From Bacteroidota bacterium (lineage in GTDB: Bacteria; Bacteroidota; Bacteroidia; Flavobacteriales_D; Sanyastnellaceae), in assembly GCA_002746975.1 (NCBI GenBank), contig NVXE01000008.1, positions 95,667 through 159,666 of the forward strand: DNA of 64,000 nucleotides, in the 5' to 3' direction. Within the stretch, counting starts at the first letter, position 1. Every line of letters starts with the position of its first letter. The position numbers and the translations under genes are program-made. Under the pieces are notes generated by a model. The model saw nothing but the letters and a program-made list of their open reading frames with translations. It did no database searches and had not been told where the DNA came from. Shown here one piece after another: positions 12,100 through 18,605 of the stretch.

Positions 12100-13095
12100 A
12101 TGGTTGCTTTATTTACGACAGTAGGATTTATTCTTGCTGGTTATTCAGTTATTGCAAACGATAGTGTTCAAACTCTTGGGACTTGGATTGCCTCAAATCG
12201 TGAGAAATTTAAATGGTACCAACTTTGGGCAGCAGCCTCTATAGTCCTAGTGGCTACACTTGTTTACGGATGGTATACTGGAGATGGCGATATTTCATTT
12301 GGACGTCTTACAAAGATTCCATATAAAGAACCACAGTGGTATCATGCTTTGGCTCCTTTAGCTCTTGTAGCTTTAACTAGAAAAGGAATTCCGGTTTCTA
12401 CTTCATTCTTAGTTTTATCAGCTTTTGCATCAACATTTGTTCTTGAAAAGATGCTCATGAAGAGTATTATGGGGTACGGACTTGCTGCTGTAGCTGCATA
12501 TGTACTTTGGATAGTTATTTCTAGAATAATTAATGAGAAAGAGGATATCAGTGAAAAATACAAGCCGTTCTGGAGGACTTTTCAATGGTTTAGCACTGGG
12601 TTTTTATGGTTTACTTGGCTTTCTCATGACATAGCGAATATTGCCGTATTCCTTCCTCGTCAGATTGACCTTTGGCAATTAGTCTTTATCATACTATTTT
12701 TTGTGGTAGGGCTAGCATATATTTTCTATAAGCAAGGGGGTGCGATTCAGCAAATAGTTCTTGACAAGCAGAGTACCAAATACGTTAGGTCAGCAACTTT
12801 AATTGATTTAGTTTATGCCTTCCTCCTACTCTACTTTAAGCAAATGAACAACATCCCTATGTCAACGACTTGGGTATTTGTAGGCCTACTTTGTGGACGT
12901 GAATTAGCTCTTAATACTGGTCTGACAAAAAAGGGTAACTTGAAGTCTATATTCCCTATCGTAGCGAAAGATTTTCTAAAATTAATCGTTGGATTAATGG
13001 TCAGTGTTGCTATCGTTCTTGCCATTCACTATGGCACTGATGAAGCCCAAAGTGCTAAAGATAATGCTGCTACTCAAACCGAGATTAGCGAATAG
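12100..13095 (+). CDS. PiT-family-like inorganic phosphate transporter
   Basis: A 331-residue inner-membrane protein with about nine to ten helices. Two repeats carry the signature parts of PiT/Pho-4 carriers: an Asn-Asp helix start in each half (IANDSVQTLGT near residue 20 and SHDIANIAVFLPR near residue 178) and a matching Pro-Val-Ser-Thr hairpin (GIPVSTSFLVLSAF and NIPMSTTWVFVGLL). PiT proteins move metal-phosphate complexes with protons or sodium. The usual GANDxxN is partly altered, so substrate is inferred from the repeats plus the PhoBR-like neighbours. The PhoB-type repeat lies just upstream. Its stop is directly followed by the GTG of the arsenite pump. Confidence 0.75.
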   Translation: MVALFTTVGFILAGYSVIANDSVQTLGTWIASNREKFKWYQLWAAASIVLVATLVYGWYTGDGDISFGRLTKIPYKEPQWYHALAPLALVALTRKGIPVSTSFLVLSAFASTFVLEKMLMKSIMGYGLAAVAAYVLWIVISRIINEKEDISEKYKPFWRTFQWFSTGFLWFTWLSHDIANIAVFLPRQIDLWQLVFIILFFVVGLAYIFYKQGGAIQQIVLDKQSTKYVRSATLIDLVYAFLLLYFKQMNNIPMSTTWVFVGLLCGRELALNTGLTKKGNLKSIFPIVAKDFLKLIVGLMVSVAIVLAIHYGTDEAQSAKDNAATQTEISE

Positions 13096-13096
13096 A

Positions 13097-14122
13097 GTGG
13101 GTAGATTAGGATTTCTTGATAGGTATTTAACTGTTTGGATTTTTCTTGCAATGGCTGTGGGAATTGCTCTCGGGGCTTGGGTTCCTAGTCTTCCTGAAAA
13201 TATCGAGAGCATCGCATACCGAGGGGTGAACATTCCCATCGCAATAGGATTGATATTAATGATGTATCCACCCTTAGCAAAGGTCGATTACAGTACTCTG
13301 CCTCTCATATTTAAGGATGTAAAGCTATTAACGCTATCCATGGTCCTGAATTGGATAATAGGTCCTATTCTTATGTTCACTCTAGCAGTGATTTTTCTAG
13401 GAGACAGGCCAGAACTTATGACGGGCGTTATCTTAATCGGTCTCGCTAGGTGTATTGCAATGGTTCTTGTTTGGAATGACTTAGCTAATGGAGACAGAAC
13501 ATACGGTGCAGCCCTAGTTGCCCTGAATAGTCTTTTTCAAGTTTTCACTTTTAGTTTTTATGCTTGGTTTTTCTTGACAATTCTCCCTACTTGGATTGGA
13601 TTGGAAGGTGTTGCCATAGATGTGCCGTTTAAATTAGTGGCTCTTAATGTTAGCTTGTACCTAGGCATTCCTTTCGTTCTGGGATTAGGAGGTCGGTTTT
13701 TATTGATTCGGACTTACAGCGATAAGTGGTATAAGGAGTCGTTCCTACCTCGTATAGGTTCCCTCACTCTAATTTCACTTCTCTTTACAATTGTGGTAAT
13801 GTTCTCTCTTCAGGGTGATCGTATTTTAGACCAAACCTCCGATGTACTCCTCGTATCTATACCTCTAGCTCTTTATTTTCTTATAATGTGGCTCGTGAGT
13901 TATTTCACCGGAATTAAACTTGGAGTTGATGAACCTCGAACAAGAGCTGTCGCATTTACTGCAGCCGGAAATAATTTCGAACTTGCTATTGCTGTTGCTA
14001 TTGGAGTTTTCGGACTCCATTCTTCTGAAGCTTTCGTAGGAGTTATCGGTCCGCTTATTGAAGTGCCTGCACTTTTGATTTTGGTCTTACTTTCGAAAAA
14101 ACTTTCGAAAAAAAAGAGCTAA
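13097..14122 (+). CDS. ACR3-family arsenite efflux transporter
   Basis: Inner-membrane pump that exports arsenite (and in some relatives antimonite). It has about ten helices; the ACR3 hallmarks are the N-terminal LGFLDRYLTVWIFLAM, the conserved Cys119 in GLARCIAMVLVWN needed for arsenite transport, and the late AAGNNFELAIAVAIG segment. The frame is open upstream to 13004, overlapping the PiT-like gene, but the GTG at 13097, one base after that gene's stop, gives the standard 341-residue protein. No arsR or arsC is nearby. Its place behind a phosphate carrier and PhoBR-like genes suggests control by phosphate, since arsenate enters through phosphate carriers. Confidence 0.92.
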   Translation: MGRLGFLDRYLTVWIFLAMAVGIALGAWVPSLPENIESIAYRGVNIPIAIGLILMMYPPLAKVDYSTLPLIFKDVKLLTLSMVLNWIIGPILMFTLAVIFLGDRPELMTGVILIGLARCIAMVLVWNDLANGDRTYGAALVALNSLFQVFTFSFYAWFFLTILPTWIGLEGVAIDVPFKLVALNVSLYLGIPFVLGLGGRFLLIRTYSDKWYKESFLPRIGSLTLISLLFTIVVMFSLQGDRILDQTSDVLLVSIPLALYFLIMWLVSYFTGIKLGVDEPRTRAVAFTAAGNNFELAIAVAIGVFGLHSSEAFVGVIGPLIEVPALLILVLLSKKLSKKKS

Positions 14123-14125
14123 ACG

Positions 14126-14794
14126 CTACTTCTGTAACATTCCCGTTCCAGCACCATTTACATAGGGATTCGTTAACTTCTCCTTCCCTATTGTTGTAGA
14201 TGGCCCGTGTCCTGGATAAACAGAGAAGCTGTCTGGAAGAGTAAACATTTGGTCTTCAATACTCCTAGCTAGTATATCCGGATTACCACCTGGAAGATCA
14301 GTCCTACCAATGCTACCCGAAAACAATACATCCCCTCCTATTACGAAAGCTTCGTCATGAGCTACAAAAATTACGTGGCCTGCACTATGTCCAGGAGCGC
14401 ATCTTAATTCGAGTTTATAAAGACCACATTCTATAATTGAACCGTGGTCTCCTAGATCAGGCCCTCTTGCCGGCAGTTCATCCATACCCGTTCCATATAA
14501 CTTAGCCGAAATAGGAGCTTGAGTCCAGGTTATTTCATCTGAAGGGTGTAGCCTCGGAAACACTCCATACTTTTCTGACACCCAAGTAACACCCATAACA
14601 TGGTCTAGGTGGGCATGTGTCAAAAGACATTCTACAATCTTAACATTAAGTGACTTACAGACTCTTTCAAATTCTAATTTTTCTTCTATAGAGCTCATAC
14701 CAGGGTCGAAAACCGTTGCTTCTCCGTCCCCATGATCAAGTAAATATGTTTGTTCACTGAATACATTGAATGTGAAAGCGTGGAGATTTTTCAT
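14126..14794 (-). CDS. MBL-fold metallohydrolase, glyoxalase II-like
   Basis: A 222-residue metallo-beta-lactamase-fold hydrolase. The dinuclear metal site is visible: H60-A-H62-L-D64-H65 (LTHAHLDHVMG), a further His in APGHSAGHV, the Asp in GGDVLF and the last His in YPGHGPST. The overall pattern and length match the small hydroxyacylglutathione-hydrolase-like group of Bacteroidota, which hydrolyse thioesters, but the true substrate is unknown. It is convergent with the ACR3 gene (three bases apart) and divergent from the large protein at 14871. A near-match to the -7 box (TTACTTTG) ends four bases before its ATG. Confidence 0.88.
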   Translation of the reverse strand: MKNLHAFTFNVFSEQTYLLDHGDGEATVFDPGMSSIEEKLEFERVCKSLNVKIVECLLTHAHLDHVMGVTWVSEKYGVFPRLHPSDEITWTQAPISAKLYGTGMDELPARGPDLGDHGSIIECGLYKLELRCAPGHSAGHVIFVAHDEAFVIGGDVLFSGSIGRTDLPGGNPDILARSIEDQMFTLPDSFSVYPGHGPSTTIGKEKLTNPYVNGAGTGMLQK

Positions 14795-14833
14795 TTTGCA
14801 AAGTAAATCCTCAAAGCACTACGAACAATAGCA

Positions 14834-14865
14834 TTGAAAGAAATCAGAAGAATGACGTATTTTCG
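14834..14865 (+). promoter_or_regulatory. Bacteroidota promoter TTG-N21-TATTTTCG
   Basis: TTG at 14834-14836 and TATTTTCG at 14858-14865 are separated by 21 bases, matching the known -33/-7 layout. The box ends five bases before ATG 14871, so the transcript would have almost no leader. Confidence 0.6.
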
Positions 14866-14870
14866 TGTCG

Positions 14871-17800
14871 ATGAAAGCAGTTCGCAAATTCATAATTCTA
14901 TTCCTATCAACAATTACTGTTCTAGTTAGCTCTAACGAAGTAATGGCCCAGTTTTACGATGGATTGCAAGTGGAATATGGAAAGAACCGTGTACAATATA
15001 GAGAATTCTTTTGGCAAAGTCATACCGTAGGTCATTTTGAAATTTACTTCTACCAAGGTGGTCATGAATTAGCGGGTGCTATTGCAGGAATTGTAGATCC
15101 TATTGCAAAAGAGTTAAAACCCTTTTTCGGAAACAGCTTAGATGGACCTATTCAAATTATCGTTTACAATAATATTGCTGAATTTCGTCAGAGTAATATC
15201 GGAGTATTCTCTGAAGATGAGGAGAGTGAGAATATTGGAGGAACAGCAAAAATAATAGGAAATAAAATTTTCTTGTACGGACGGGGTGACAGGGCAGCTC
15301 TTGAACGCGACTTAAGAGGCGGACTAGCAAGAATTGCACTTCATCAAACCATTTACAAGGGCGATTGGCAAGATGCTCTTAAAAATTACAGTATGCTACA
15401 GATTCCCGATTGGTTTAGCGAAGGGTTAATCGAGTATCTAGCAGAAGAGAAATCATCAAGGTCTAAAATCAACATTTTCGATGCTGCAAGGTCAGGCGCT
15501 CTTAATAACATTGACAGAAGTGAAGGTGATGAGGCTGGAAAACTAGGAAATGCCGTCTGGGATTACATTGCAGACGTTTATGGAATTCCCGCCATTGCTA
15601 ACGTGTTGTACATGGTAAGGATTAGCCGTAGTGTTGAGGGGGGATTTAGGTTCGCCACTGGATTAAATTTATCCAGTCTTATGTCTGAGGTGATTTCATA
15701 CCAAACCTCCCAAACCCCAATTAATTATTCCTCTAAGTTGCCTCGTATTGAAACGCGAAAAGAAAAAAAACACTCAAAAAGGGATGGGGGCGATTTGCCC
15801 TTTTTATTAAAGAAACGATACAACTATGTCTCTATAAAACTGTCTCCTGATGGTAAGACATTCGCTTTTATTACTGATGAGAGAGGGCAAATGCGAGTTT
15901 GGACCTGCGAGATAAATGATAAAGAGATGACGAGTGGAGAAAATCAGTTCACTATCACGAAACGAGCTCAACACGGCAATAAGCTAGATCAAATTATTAG
16001 CGACATCCCTCCTCCTATTGCATGGCACCCCGACGGAAAGAAATTCACTTATTCTACAAGTGAAAAAGGCTCTCCCATTCTAGTCACAGTAATACTTGAC
16101 GAGAAGAAGATTATAAAAAAAGACCTCTTTCGAATAGACGAAGTTCTGTCAATGGACTATTCACCTGATGGGAAAAGCATAGTGTTTTCAGGTATGCAGA
16201 ACGGTATTTCCGACTTATACCTTTATCGTGTAATAGGAAATCTACAGGAACCACTTTGGAGAGATAGGTTCGATGACTTAAACCCCCGTTTTACTGAAAA
16301 TGGTCTCTCCATTATTTTTTCGTCTAATCGTAGCGATGAAGTTTTAAGGGGGGATAGAGAAAATATCCCCTTTAACAAGCAGTTAGATATTTATTTATGC
16401 CACCTCGATGAGAAAACTCCTTATTTAGAACAACTGGTAAAAACTCCAAGAATTGACGAACGATTTCCAATACCTCTTCCAAATAGAGAATTCGTGTACC
16501 TTTCAGAATACGAAAATGGAAATCAAGAAACTAGTTGGGGTTGGGCAGATAGTACCATACTAAGTATCGACACTATTATTCGATATAGACACTTTTTCGA
16601 TACTAGAGTTATATCCGAATTAGATATTCCCATAAGTAGTTTGGATTGTGATACTTTAAGTGGAGTATGCTATGGCAACTCTACTGTTATGAGACATTCA
16701 TATAGAGTAGATATAGGGAAAATGCCTCGTACTAAAGACAGGACATCAGGCGTATTTAGTGTTTCAACCCAAAATATAAATCTAAATACCGGGTTTATCC
16801 CCCCTGATTGGACTGAGAAATTCGAATCTACTGATGCCGATATTAGAAATTATAAGTTTGAATTTGAGAGTCGGATTGAAAAAGCTCAGTTTTCAAATAA
16901 AAACAATTCTGAAGATACAGTACTTACATCTAATAACGAATCAGCTGATACTCTAGTTGCCTCTATACGACTTAAGCCAGTACACTACAGGCTGAACTTT
17001 TCTCTTCAGAAATTACAGAGTCAAGTTAACAATACATTCGGCTCTCAATTCTATAGAGCATATGATGGAACTACTTCATTTAATCCTGGTCTAGGGAATG
17101 CAACAGAAATACGAATTAGTGACTTATTTGATGACTATCACATAATTGGAGGGTTTAACATTCCCGCAAATTTGAGTAATACTCTTGTAGGTTTGGCTTA
17201 TTACGACTTGAGTGGCAGAGTGGATAAAATGATTTCATTTCAACGTCAAGGAAAAACTGGAATTGATCCTTTGTCATATAATATACTCGAGACCCAATCA
17301 CATTTCGCTCAGTATCGACTCACTTTTCCTGTTGATGAAGTTAGAAGTCTGAGGGCTTCCATGGGTCTAAGGCTCGATAGAGCTGTCACCCAAGGCACTG
17401 AGATGTTCAGCTTGACTACTCCTAATTCTTGGACAAACCAAATCGGTTTTAAGCTCGCTTGGGTAAAAGATAATTCCCGAAGTCCCGCTCTAAATATCAT
17501 GGAGGGGACAAGAGCAAAAGTTTGGGCAGAGTATTACTTAGATGGATTTGATAAGAGTTTCGGAACAATAGGGTTCGATTTAAGACACTACGTAAAAATA
17601 TATGCAAACGCAATAATTGCTGTTAGAGCAGCTGGAAATTGGTCCATCGGCGAGCTTGCTTTATTAAATTTACTTGGGGGAACTGATAACAGCTTGTCGT
17701 TGGGTAACAACTACGGTACACCTATTGACACCAAACAATCTTATGCTTACCAAGCAAACATAACTCCTATGCGTGGGTTTGCGAACAACGCTAGAAATGG

Positions 17801-18161
17801 ATCTAACGCAGCTATTTGCAATGTCGAATTAAGAATTCCCCTTTGGAGTACGTTATTCTCAGAACCATCAAAAACAGATTTTATTCGAAACCTTCAGATG
17901 GTTGGTTTTGCCGATGTGGGAAGTGCTTGGACAGGCCTAAACCCATACTCTGACGACAATACTTTTAACTCTACGGTCTATGAAAATAATCCAATCACTG
18001 TAACCATCAATAACAATAAAGAACCTATCATTTACGATTTTGGATTCGGGTTTCGTTCCAGAATGTTCGGGTATTGGGTAAACGCAAATTGGGGTTGGGG
18101 AGTTGATGATAATATAATTCTGCCTAGCCGTTTCTCCCTTAGCTTAAATTTTGATTTCTAG
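14871..18161 (+). CDS. Giant secreted protein: degenerate peptidase, WD40-like propeller and outer-membrane barrel
   Basis: A 1096-residue protein with a signal peptide (cleavage near VMA-Q, about residue 26). Residues 45-195 resemble gluzincin (peptidase MA) domains: the helix DLRGGLARIALHQTIY (147-162) stands where HExxH should be, and IPDWFSEGLIEYLAE (178-192) is the typical downstream helix. The zinc-binding HExxH is missing, so it is probably inactive. Residues 320-560 hold TolB-type propeller repeats (LSPDGKTFAFITDE, YSPDGKSIVFSG). The last 400 residues look like a BamA-type surface-antigen barrel (LNLLGGTDNS, TPMRGFANNA) ending in Phe. It probably sits in the outer membrane; the role is unknown. 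A GTG at 14865 lies inside the promoter and is rejected. Confidence 0.82.
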   Translation: MKAVRKFIILFLSTITVLVSSNEVMAQFYDGLQVEYGKNRVQYREFFWQSHTVGHFEIYFYQGGHELAGAIAGIVDPIAKELKPFFGNSLDGPIQIIVYNNIAEFRQSNIGVFSEDEESENIGGTAKIIGNKIFLYGRGDRAALERDLRGGLARIALHQTIYKGDWQDALKNYSMLQIPDWFSEGLIEYLAEEKSSRSKINIFDAARSGALNNIDRSEGDEAGKLGNAVWDYIADVYGIPAIANVLYMVRISRSVEGGFRFATGLNLSSLMSEVISYQTSQTPINYSSKLPRIETRKEKKHSKRDGGDLPFLLKKRYNYVSIKLSPDGKTFAFITDERGQMRVWTCEINDKEMTSGENQFTITKRAQHGNKLDQIISDIPPPIAWHPDGKKFTYSTSEKGSPILVTVILDEKKIIKKDLFRIDEVLSMDYSPDGKSIVFSGMQNGISDLYLYRVIGNLQEPLWRDRFDDLNPRFTENGLSIIFSSNRSDEVLRGDRENIPFNKQLDIYLCHLDEKTPYLEQLVKTPRIDERFPIPLPNREFVYLSEYENGNQETSWGWADSTILSIDTIIRYRHFFDTRVISELDIPISSLDCDTLSGVCYGNSTVMRHSYRVDIGKMPRTKDRTSGVFSVSTQNINLNTGFIPPDWTEKFESTDADIRNYKFEFESRIEKAQFSNKNNSEDTVLTSNNESADTLVASIRLKPVHYRLNFSLQKLQSQVNNTFGSQFYRAYDGTTSFNPGLGNATEIRISDLFDDYHIIGGFNIPANLSNTLVGLAYYDLSGRVDKMISFQRQGKTGIDPLSYNILETQSHFAQYRLTFPVDEVRSLRASMGLRLDRAVTQGTEMFSLTTPNSWTNQIGFKLAWVKDNSRSPALNIMEGTRAKVWAEYYLDGFDKSFGTIGFDLRHYVKIYANAIIAVRAAGNWSIGELALLNLLGGTDNSLSLGNNYGTPIDTKQSYAYQANITPMRGFANNARNGSNAAICNVELRIPLWSTLFSEPSKTDFIRNLQMVGFADVGSAWTGLNPYSDDNTFNSTVYENNPITVTINNNKEPIIYDFGFGFRSRMFGYWVNANWGWGVDDNIILPSRFSLSLNFDF

Positions 18162-18185
18162 CATAGACCTAATACCTTTCTTAAC

Positions 18186-18605
18186 ATGGAACTCTCCACT
18201 CTTTTCATCCTTCTCGCAATAGGAATCTGTGCTGGAATTGCAAGCGGCTTTGTGGGTATCGGAGGTGGGCTGATAATCGTGCCTGCTTTGATTTACTTCA
18301 CAGGTTTAGACCAACACACAGCTCAAGGGACTAGCCTAGCTTTAATGTTACCCCCTATTGGAATACTTGCTGCAATGAATTACCACAGCGAACAATCTGT
18401 TGAATGGACCTATTCAGCAGTAATTGCAGTAACATTTATCGTAGGTGCATGGCTAGGTAGTAAGTGGTCTTTACGATTATCTCCGTCTATTGTTAGACTT
18501 ATCTTTTCCGCGCTTTTATTTTATGCTGGCATACAAATGGCGTTAAAGTCGCTTCGGGAGATTTTTCCTGACTTTTTTACCGATAATTTTACTGGCAATG
18601 GATAA
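18186..18605 (+). CDS. Half-size TauE/SafE-family membrane protein
   Basis: A 139-residue inner-membrane protein with four predicted helices, equal to one of the two repeats of TauE/SafE (UPF0721) exporters. The first helix carries the family motif GIASGFVGIGGGLIIVPAL, followed by HTAQGTSLALMLPP. Family members export sulfite, sulfoacetate or other organic anions; half-size versions are thought to dimerise. The substrate is unknown. Its last eight bases overlap the start of the M20 hydrolase (ATGGATAA), suggesting translation coupling, so the exported compound may be related to that enzyme's product. Confidence 0.82.
   Translation: MELSTLFILLAIGICAGIASGFVGIGGGLIIVPALIYFTGLDQHTAQGTSLALMLPPIGILAAMNYHSEQSVEWTYSAVIAVTFIVGAWLGSKWSLRLSPSIVRLIFSALLFYAGIQMALKSLREIFPDFFTDNFTGNG

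Follow-up and report, generated by a model that had tools for sequence, protein, structure and literature searches.

Proteins that place a TolB-like propeller ahead of an outer-membrane barrel have been described twice, as "WD40-Omp85" (2014, PMC4104836) and as "OMP-TolB-like" (2025, PMC12204202), with function unknown in the sections cited here. The WD40-Omp85 proteins of Heinz and Lithgow (2014, PMC4104836) carry a TolB-like propeller before a non-POTRA Omp85 barrel, and were likened in the cited part to a BamA-BamB fusion that gives other BAM members a platform. The main text of that paper does not contain the word peptidase, and its Metallo group is based on PF00149, which is another domain. 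The OMP-TolB-like or FhaC-TolB-like proteins combine an outer-membrane barrel with a six-bladed TolB-like propeller, are often annotated as TolB, and were suggested as the source of TolB; the adjacent domain is called a Rossmann fold and no catalytic history is described in the cited sections (PMC12204202). Omp85 barrels are also present in BamA and in TamA/TamL, which occurs with TamB and has three POTRA domains (PMC12045153, cited part). Recent work showed that envelope biogenesis in the phylum departs strongly from that of E. coli, and the cited part of the same paper lists BamA, D, G, H, M, and P as subunits of the F. johnsoniae BAM complex, none of them a protein of the present kind; its main text does not use 'peptidase', 'propeller', or 'TolB' (PMC12611786).

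Here we analyzed a protein encoded in a Bacteroidota DNA stretch of 64,000 nucleotides (the whole stretch is referred to as the window). It shows the WD40-Omp85 traits, i.e., an Omp85-type C-terminal barrel with a WD40/TolB-like propeller ahead of it, and its identity with the WD40-Omp85 set rests on the published description as cited. The protein was found in 132 of 149 genomes of the window's class, whereas Omp85 subfamilies other than BamA, TamA, and Lipo were conserved at the genus level only according to the cited part of PMC4104836. A literature search that excluded supplements and bioRxiv preprints returned no function for the family, no peptidase-like domain reported for a WD40-Omp85 protein, and no catalytic history.

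Gene and domain layout

The gene occupies 14871-18161 on the forward strand (ATG at 14871, stop at 18159-18161) and encodes a protein of 1096 residues; a GTG at 14865 is an alternative start of the same reading frame. A full-length search of its own 2.39 Mb genome returned one copy, and profile A1 gave a second match for this genome. Conservation and open frames in relatives, with matches in 58 of 60, rule out a chance reading frame or a MAG artefact. A stop codon was seen inside the match in two relatives, G012 (1 TAG) and G058 (1 TAA). A scan for promoters and terminators gave sites no more numerous than in shuffles.

Sequence matches and predicted models gave a layout of a signal peptide, a gluzincin-fold N-domain without HExxH, a TolB-like propeller, and an Omp85/BamA-type barrel, all encoded on the forward strand. 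The sequence-only reading, which had placed the last three in one polypeptide at this position, is thereby confirmed in its outline. The Sec-type signal peptide (residues 1-26, 14871-14948) was read from the sequence and includes a helix at residues 2-19 in the model; cleavage presumably takes place before Q27, which is found in 98% of 60 class rows and 100% of 33 other-class rows of the alignment. Judged by sequence, the window protein does not resemble a lipoprotein. The N terminus of Omp85 proteins lies in the periplasm, and the earlier description of the peptidase-like part as held "outside a barrel" is therefore read as periplasmic, a location that the N-domain and the propeller would share.

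The propeller (residues 316-620, 15816-16730) was recognized by both sequence and fold, in agreement with the TolB-like repeats proposed earlier. Pfam PD40 matched in four stretches (E 8.4e-14), the best E against TolB structures by sequence was 3.5e-6, TIGR02800 (TolB) matched with E 1.5e-14, and Foldseek aligned the propeller with the TolB structure 7mx5_B (E 7.9e-9). The TIGR02800 score of 53.8 bits lies below the cut-off of 343.15 and a barrel is present, so an identity as TolB of the Tol-Pal system was rejected. The propeller is followed by a poorly conserved linker (residues 621-705, 16731-16985) with pLDDT mostly <65 and a mean pairwise identity of 0.19 in the class.

The barrel (residues 706-1096, 16986-18158) gave a weak signal by sequence: NCBIfam Omp85_fam matched with E 0.006, below its cut-off, the Pfam scan of the window protein returned no Omp85 match, and Pfam Omp85 was above cut-off in two of seven homologues scanned. 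Structure prediction did yield a barrel, and its model (residues 712-1096) matched BamA of D. radiodurans (8xnb_A; Z 24.6, 315 residues aligned, rmsd 4.1) and of F. johnsoniae (9n2d_A; Z 23.7). An RGF motif at residues 968-970 (17772-17780) is the counterpart of the Omp85 loop-6 VRGF/Y motif, as described in the cited part of PMC12611786. RGF or RGY was present in 31 of 32 class rows, and 30 of 32 end in Phe, as the window protein does. Together, the predicted fold and the motif uphold the BamA-type barrel of the sequence-only reading. The N-terminal part appears to differ from those of both BamA and TamL: Pfam matches up to E 10 included no POTRA, and residues 27-620 are filled by other folds, the linker being of low confidence. 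No BamA model appeared in the NCBIfam scan of the window protein up to E 10 and the N-terminal part is a peptidase fold with a propeller, so BamA identity was also rejected.

A peptidase fold without an intact zinc site

The N-domain (residues 27-315, 14949-15815) was modelled over residues 24-318 with a pLDDT of 84.3 and a pTM of 0.81. Its fold matched M9 collagenase (Z 15.0), M30 lugdulysin (Z 14.1), and M1 aminopeptidases (Z about 12-13); the 50 fold matches listed included no Rossmann protein, in contrast to the label given to the adjacent domain of OMP-TolB-like proteins. A Pfam scan of the window protein found no peptidase. The class N-domain profile aligned to homologues with an intact HExxH at an hhalign probability of 100 (E 1.3e-55), and PF13485 (Peptidase_MA_2) matched 5 of 5 other-class proteins scanned (four above cut-off) but neither of two class homologues nor the window protein. 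By fold and descent the domain thus belongs to the Peptidase_MA_2/gluzincin peptidases, from which the window protein differs in having none of the HExxH residues.

In the alignment, HELVH of homologues with an intact site falls on G150-G151-L-A-R154 (15318-15332), and of the zinc site only the downstream Glu is left: residue 184, in the third-ligand column, is still Glu (state string GGREE). The sequence-only reading had put ARIALHQ at the place of HExxH. It was right that the motif is missing, but ARIALHQ spans residues 153-159 and merely overlaps the true site, which starts three residues earlier. The helix that it described as kept downstream, IPDWFSEGLIEYLAE (residues 178-192, 15402-15446), does retain Glu184 and Glu188 in the alignment, and P179, W181, and G185 are at 100% in both the 60 class rows and the 33 other-class rows. 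A shifted or displaced intact site was rejected, as the window protein has no HExxH elsewhere, and the proposal of a pseudo-enzyme holds.

The same alignment column carries an intact HExxH in all 35 other-class genomes read (28 families). Within the class, 161 of 166 genomes read had only the degenerate form, four (one family) only the intact form, and one both, in 59 families altogether. H150, E151, H154, E184, E188, and Y223 are invariant in the 33 other-class rows; in the 60 class rows these columns are scattered, the commonest residue reaching 0.17-0.48, except at 151 (Gly, 0.67), and at 184 it is still Glu (0.42). All 32 degenerate proteins used fall on one side of one branch, both in the full-length tree and in the tree without the N-domain. 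This suggests that catalysis was probably lost once with the N-domain kept. We infer that the change was a loss and not a gain; the complete zinc site in other classes indicates that the family probably began as a metalloprotease.

In other classes the N-domain is the most conserved part, with a mean identity of 0.55 against 0.44 for both barrel and propeller, while the class mean pairwise identities are 0.37 for the N-domain, 0.40 for the barrel, and 0.32 for the propeller. Several residues conserved in the class differ from those of other classes (R40 1.00, S108 0.93, G111 0.95, N121 0.80, N244 0.83). This retained identity, together with the newly conserved residues, suggests continued selection on the class N-domain for something other than catalysis; part of the domain may be relaxing, given the drop from 0.55 to 0.37. 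Separately, the N-domain is very divergent in class families f14, f53, f62, and f69.

Distribution and genomic neighbourhood

No copy of the protein was found in 17 of the 149 class genomes. Families without it are f9, f29, f32, f36, f39, f43, f63, and f66 in the class and f81 outside, and no common explanation was found for them. An N-domain profile search of 17 further genomes of f63, f32, and f81 gave no match, which shows little since it was run without a positive control. Of the 149 class genomes, 143 have SprA (TIGR04189), and 13 of these are among the 17 in which the protein was not found; a strict component of type IX secretion is thus ruled out. PADLOC returned no defence-system match.

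Neighbours in the window encode a metallo-beta-lactamase-fold hydrolase, a half-length TauE, an M20 peptidase, and RecQ, and their clusters recur in nine, six, seven, and five of 13 class loci, respectively; they lack an evident functional link, and an operon in the window was rejected. Among homologues in other classes, a TamB/AsmA-like gene at position -2 and RNase R at -1, on the same strand, were seen in 9 of 28 loci from nine families, against none of the 13 class loci examined. This neighbourhood is a loose link between the family and outer-membrane assembly or lipid transport, although it may reflect no more than shared gene order, with RNase R in between.

Proposed role

We propose, with a probability of roughly 0.45, that the protein is an Omp85 factor without POTRA domains that uses its pseudo-peptidase and propeller to bind clients or partners in the periplasm. 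The POTRA domains would be replaced by the TolB-like propeller and the gluzincin-fold domain on an Omp85 protein of the assembly or translocation type. The family probably started as a periplasmic metalloprotease tethered to the outer membrane, and a single branch, from which most of the window's class descends, would have lost the zinc and catalytic residues while keeping the fold. The retained fold and constraint suggest that the N-domain was probably kept for binding and not cutting, most likely as a non-catalytic receptor. The binding or gating suggested in the sequence-only reading would likewise follow from the retained fold and constraint, and the role in secretion or surface assembly raised there is hypothetical. 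Client polypeptides or partner proteins would be held by the propeller together with the old substrate cleft, or with a newly formed surface, where the barrel opens to the periplasm, and this would help to insert or move them; both the client binding and the barrel activity are putative. There are Omp85 relatives that secrete or display a passenger instead of inserting proteins, so the role of the barrel could differ from insertion. PlpD is an example (PMC4104836, cited part). The 17 class genomes without the protein speak against the proposed role, as some lineages manage without it, and so does its absence from the listed subunits of the F. johnsoniae BAM complex.

A fuller version appears doubtful: a nearly class-wide outer-membrane machine, in which a tethered periplasmic metalloprotease gave up catalysis a single time and turned into a receptor that passes clients to an Omp85 insertase or translocase without POTRA domains, parallel to BAM and TamL and maybe with its own TamB-like bridge in other classes. 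The same architecture seems to be a live protease in other classes and a pseudo-protease in the window's class. Comparing the live and degenerate forms could show what a propeller and a peptidase fold do beside a barrel, and whether a protease turned receptor.

A quality-control alternative starts from an ancestral outer-membrane protease resembling BepA. An ancestor of that kind could have trimmed or removed stalled outer-membrane proteins, with the class form left as a non-catalytic chaperone for BAM or LptD clients and the barrel chiefly an anchor. The complete HExxH in other classes, the Glu184 at 100% in their 33 rows, and the N-domain being their most conserved part agree with this, but the Omp85 hallmarks of the barrel exceed the needs of an anchor, and no BAM- or Lpt-type gene was recognized by reading through 28 neighbour clusters. 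We consider this unlikely.

The TamB/AsmA-like neighbours in other classes raise a further alternative, that a second TamB/AsmA-like bridge has this protein as its outer-membrane partner, and that the protein takes part in phospholipid or protein transport across the periplasm. PF04357 (TamB) matched in seven of the nine loci by at least one search, i.e., by genome search in G209, G299, G310, G376, G408, and G426 and by hmmscan in L090, L096, L098, and L107, and in G209, G310, and G426 the match at the locus is the only one found in the genome. The two PF04357 searches disagree for some rows, however: hmmscan found no family in L100 and AsmA/DUF748 only in L094 and L116, all three of which had PF04357 in the genome search. 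L110 has DUF748 only, as does L092, there below cut-off. Another TamB match also lies elsewhere in G268, G299, G376, and G408, beside a full TamL in G268 and a few kb from a sub-cut-off TamL-model match in the other three. With no such neighbour in the class loci, a bridge partner seems quite unlikely.

It is decidedly improbable that the propeller links the outer membrane with the cell wall by binding a partner that is Pal-like or attached to peptidoglycan. TolB is indeed the best match of the propeller, and in the cited sections of PMC12204202 (2025) OMP-TolB-like proteins adjoin TolB by structure and Bacteroidetes have no identifiable tol-pal loci; yet the TolB family score is far below its cut-off, and no tol or pal gene was recognized by reading the neighbour clusters. 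An N-domain that is a left-over, binds nothing itself, and serves only to keep the propeller in its fold would account for the lost constraint at the catalytic columns, the lower class identity, and the four very divergent families, but has very little probability, as the domain is kept across the 59 class families with an identity near that of the barrel and with newly conserved residues.

Domain architecture of the protein

The window protein is a widespread Omp85 protein with an architecture that has already been named; its gluzincin domain was not found reported. It is encoded by one open frame of 1096 residues (14871-18161, +; ATG at 14871), and a full-length search of the genome (2,390,714 bases, 14 contigs) found a single copy. 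Profile A1 gave a second match in the genome, printed without its position, which is perhaps another propeller. A relative with 81% identity across residues 481-1096 is carried on a Flavobacteriales MAG contig.

PD40 was the sole confident Pfam match (E 8.4e-14). NCBIfam returned TolB with a score under the model cut-off and Omp85_fam at E 0.006, and a sequence search of the PDB gave TolB (best E 3.5e-6). For the window protein itself, the barrel and peptidase assignments therefore depend on homologues and fold. PF13485 was found in all five scanned proteins from other classes of the phylum (four over cut-off) and was absent from the window protein and from both scanned homologues of its own class, Bacteroidia.

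The full-length AlphaFold2 model, built on an alignment of the window protein with 46 homologues from its class (47 sequences in all), reached a pLDDT of 82.0 and a pTM of 0.78. Its C-terminal part (712-1096) matched BamA of D. radiodurans (Z 24.6, 315 aligned, rmsd 4.1) and of F. johnsoniae (9n2d_A; Z 23.7, 302 aligned, rmsd 3.5); Foldseek likewise returned BamA, and also TolB (7mx5_B, E 7.9e-9). A separate model of the N-domain (residues 24-318, 59 sequences; pLDDT 84.3, pTM 0.81) matched Grimontia collagenase (Z 15.0, 235 aligned, rmsd 4.2), lugdulysin M30 (Z 14.1) and aminopeptidase N (Z about 12-13), where values below about 13 can be common among helical folds and the top matches lie above that. 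In Foldseek, the peptidase domains of M9 collagenases matched at E 9.4e-5 at best, with six matches at E ≤ 0.001. As far as can be judged, the top fold matches all come from one clan, and the predicted N-domain fold matches that of gluzincins; this model is not independent of HExxH-bearing homologues, because its alignment contained them.

The architecture has been named WD40-Omp85 in the main text of one paper (PMC4104836), in which the word 'peptidase' is absent. The available text of a paper on the origin of TolB (PMC12204202) describes the same architecture as OMP-TolB-like and terms the adjoining domain a Rossmann fold; the best fold matches of the domain modelled here are gluzincins. Neither 'propeller' nor 'TolB' occurs in the main text of a 2025 BAM paper (PMC12611786) or of a TamL paper (PMC12045153). 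A literature search, with supplements and preprints outside its scope, returned nothing on the peptidase domain or on how it lost its site.

Probable loss of the HExxH site

Homologues from other classes carry HELVH, or a close variant, followed by EGLAEY or similar. At the aligned site the window protein has G150, G151 and R154, with Glu184 and Glu188 retained. Together with the sequence matches and predicted folds, these residues bear out the sequence-only reading of an inactive gluzincin-like domain, a propeller and a barrel in one polypeptide. That reading placed ARIALHQ where HExxH is expected; the motif is indeed missing, but ARIALHQ begins three residues past the start of the site.

Of the 229 N-domain rows aligned, 227, from 201 genomes, were read for the motif. 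Conservation of HExxH across homologues had been proposed as a check by the earlier reading. HExxH was intact in all 35 genomes of other classes (28 families), whereas 161 of 166 class genomes (59 families; a non-random set including the window genome and 28 members of its genus, family and order) had only degenerate forms. Four class genomes, all of family f50, had only the intact form, and one of family f72 (G188) had both. Of the 181 degenerate rows, where several genomes are represented more than once, 1 retains the first His, 2 retain the Glu, 5 the second His and 54 the downstream Glu. H150, E151, H154, E184, E188 and Y223 were fixed in 33 other-class rows and scattered in 60 class rows, where Glu was still the most frequent residue at position 184 (0.42).

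A tree was built from 32 degenerate proteins, 4 intact ones of the class and 30 from other classes, all full-length (66 in total, two pairs identical). It placed all degenerate proteins behind one branch (SH-aLRT 100), with a single change of state. The same split and single change were recovered without the N-domain (support 99). Both were quick, unrooted searches without bootstrap, with 19 and 16 rows, respectively, flagged for unusual composition. Gluzincins in general are HExxH enzymes, and the direction is therefore read as loss, not gain. The alignments and trees thus suggest that the gluzincin domain was probably disarmed once.

Intact HExxH within the class occurred at five loci (L134, L135, L136, L187 and L247, in genomes G133, G163, G096, G191 and G188): one in each of the four f50 genomes read, and one as a second copy in G188. 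The intact proteins in the tree, from four of these five genomes, clustered together on a long branch, next to other-class proteins; they are either retained paralogues or transfers.

Constraint on the domains and possible function

Mean pairwise identity (60 class rows vs 33 other-class rows) was 0.37 vs 0.55 for the N-domain, 0.32 vs 0.44 for the propeller, 0.19 vs 0.23 for the linker and 0.40 vs 0.44 for the barrel. The N-domain is thus the best-conserved part where HExxH is intact; where the motif is lost, its identity drops and roughly equals that of the barrel. Some residues (R40, S108, G111, N121, K132, Y136, N244 and Y247) are conserved in the class yet different elsewhere. We read this pattern as an N-domain that, once catalysis had ceased, would have been selected for binding or for structure. 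A relic N-domain is a rival explanation, and relaxed selection may account for part of the lower identity in the class. Tentatively, we prefer docking of a client or partner at the barrel (probability about 0.45); quality control and, with a TolB-like propeller, Tol-like tethering are further rivals.

Distribution and type IX secretion

A full-length single-sequence search gave matches in 134 of the 149 genomes drawn from the class, two of them confined to the propeller (G156, G185). The N-domain profile matched 131 and profile A1 added G117, so the protein is present in 132. The 17 genomes without it belong to f9 (3), f29, f32, f36, f39 (4), f43 (3), f63 (3) and f66. Across the phylum draw, profile A1 matched 225 of 247 genomes, a count overstated by weak f63 and f81 matches; in G181 (f63) they were confined to propeller columns. 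A search of 17 further genomes (11 f81, 5 f63, 1 f32), run without a positive control, found no N-domain. Altogether, N-domain profiles matched none of the genomes tested from f9 (3), f39 (4), f63 (8), f43 (3) and f81 (11), those of f81 and five of f63 lacking a positive control.

SprA was found in 143 of the 149 class genomes, including 13 of the 17 without the protein, which therefore does not strictly track the type IX system; strict dependence on that system is ruled out. SprA is kept by the f9, f39 and f63 genomes of this draw and not by those of f43. Two SprA matches contain in-frame stops, possibly assembly errors (G139 C31, three TGA; G112 C1, two TGA, one TAG and three TAA).

Gene neighbourhoods

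TAM-like transport is a rival to docking on which the neighbourhoods bear. Upstream of the gene in 28 other-class loci of 20 kb (28 families), position -1 was occupied by an RNase R-like gene in 10 loci and position -2 by a TamB/AsmA-like gene in 9, both on the same strand; the three genes stand in a row at L090, L092, L094, L096, L098, L100, L107, L110 and L116 (nine families). RNase R was confirmed in the one locus checked, L098 (RNB, E 9.5e-112). By hmmscan, the nine -2 proteins had TamB (PF04357) over cut-off in L090, L096, L098 and L107, AsmA over cut-off and no TamB in L094 and L116, and DUF748 alone in L110 (over cut-off) and L092 (under). The L100 protein (13848-18563, -) had no Pfam family by hmmscan, yet a genome search placed PF04357 within it (117.7 bits). 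That search, disagreeing with hmmscan, matched six of the nine, L100 included; seven were matched by at least one of the two. PF04357 was found in 10 of 12 genomes searched; the -2 neighbour was the sole match in G209, G310 and G426, and G268, G299, G376 and G408 had a match elsewhere.

The arrangement occurred in none of the 13 class loci, where the recurrent neighbours were an MBL hydrolase encoded on the other strand (9), an M20 peptidase (7), a half-length TauE protein (6) and RecQ (5). No tRNA was found within the 64-kb window. The window's half-length TauE/SafE protein (18186-18605, +) covers positions 126-237 of the 237 of PF01925, and genes from its cluster, likewise short at 124-133 aa, stand at +1 in five other class loci. 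Upstream, an SBF-family transporter ORF (13004-14122, +) was given a GTG start that falls within the PHO4-like gene before it; its real start probably lies farther downstream.
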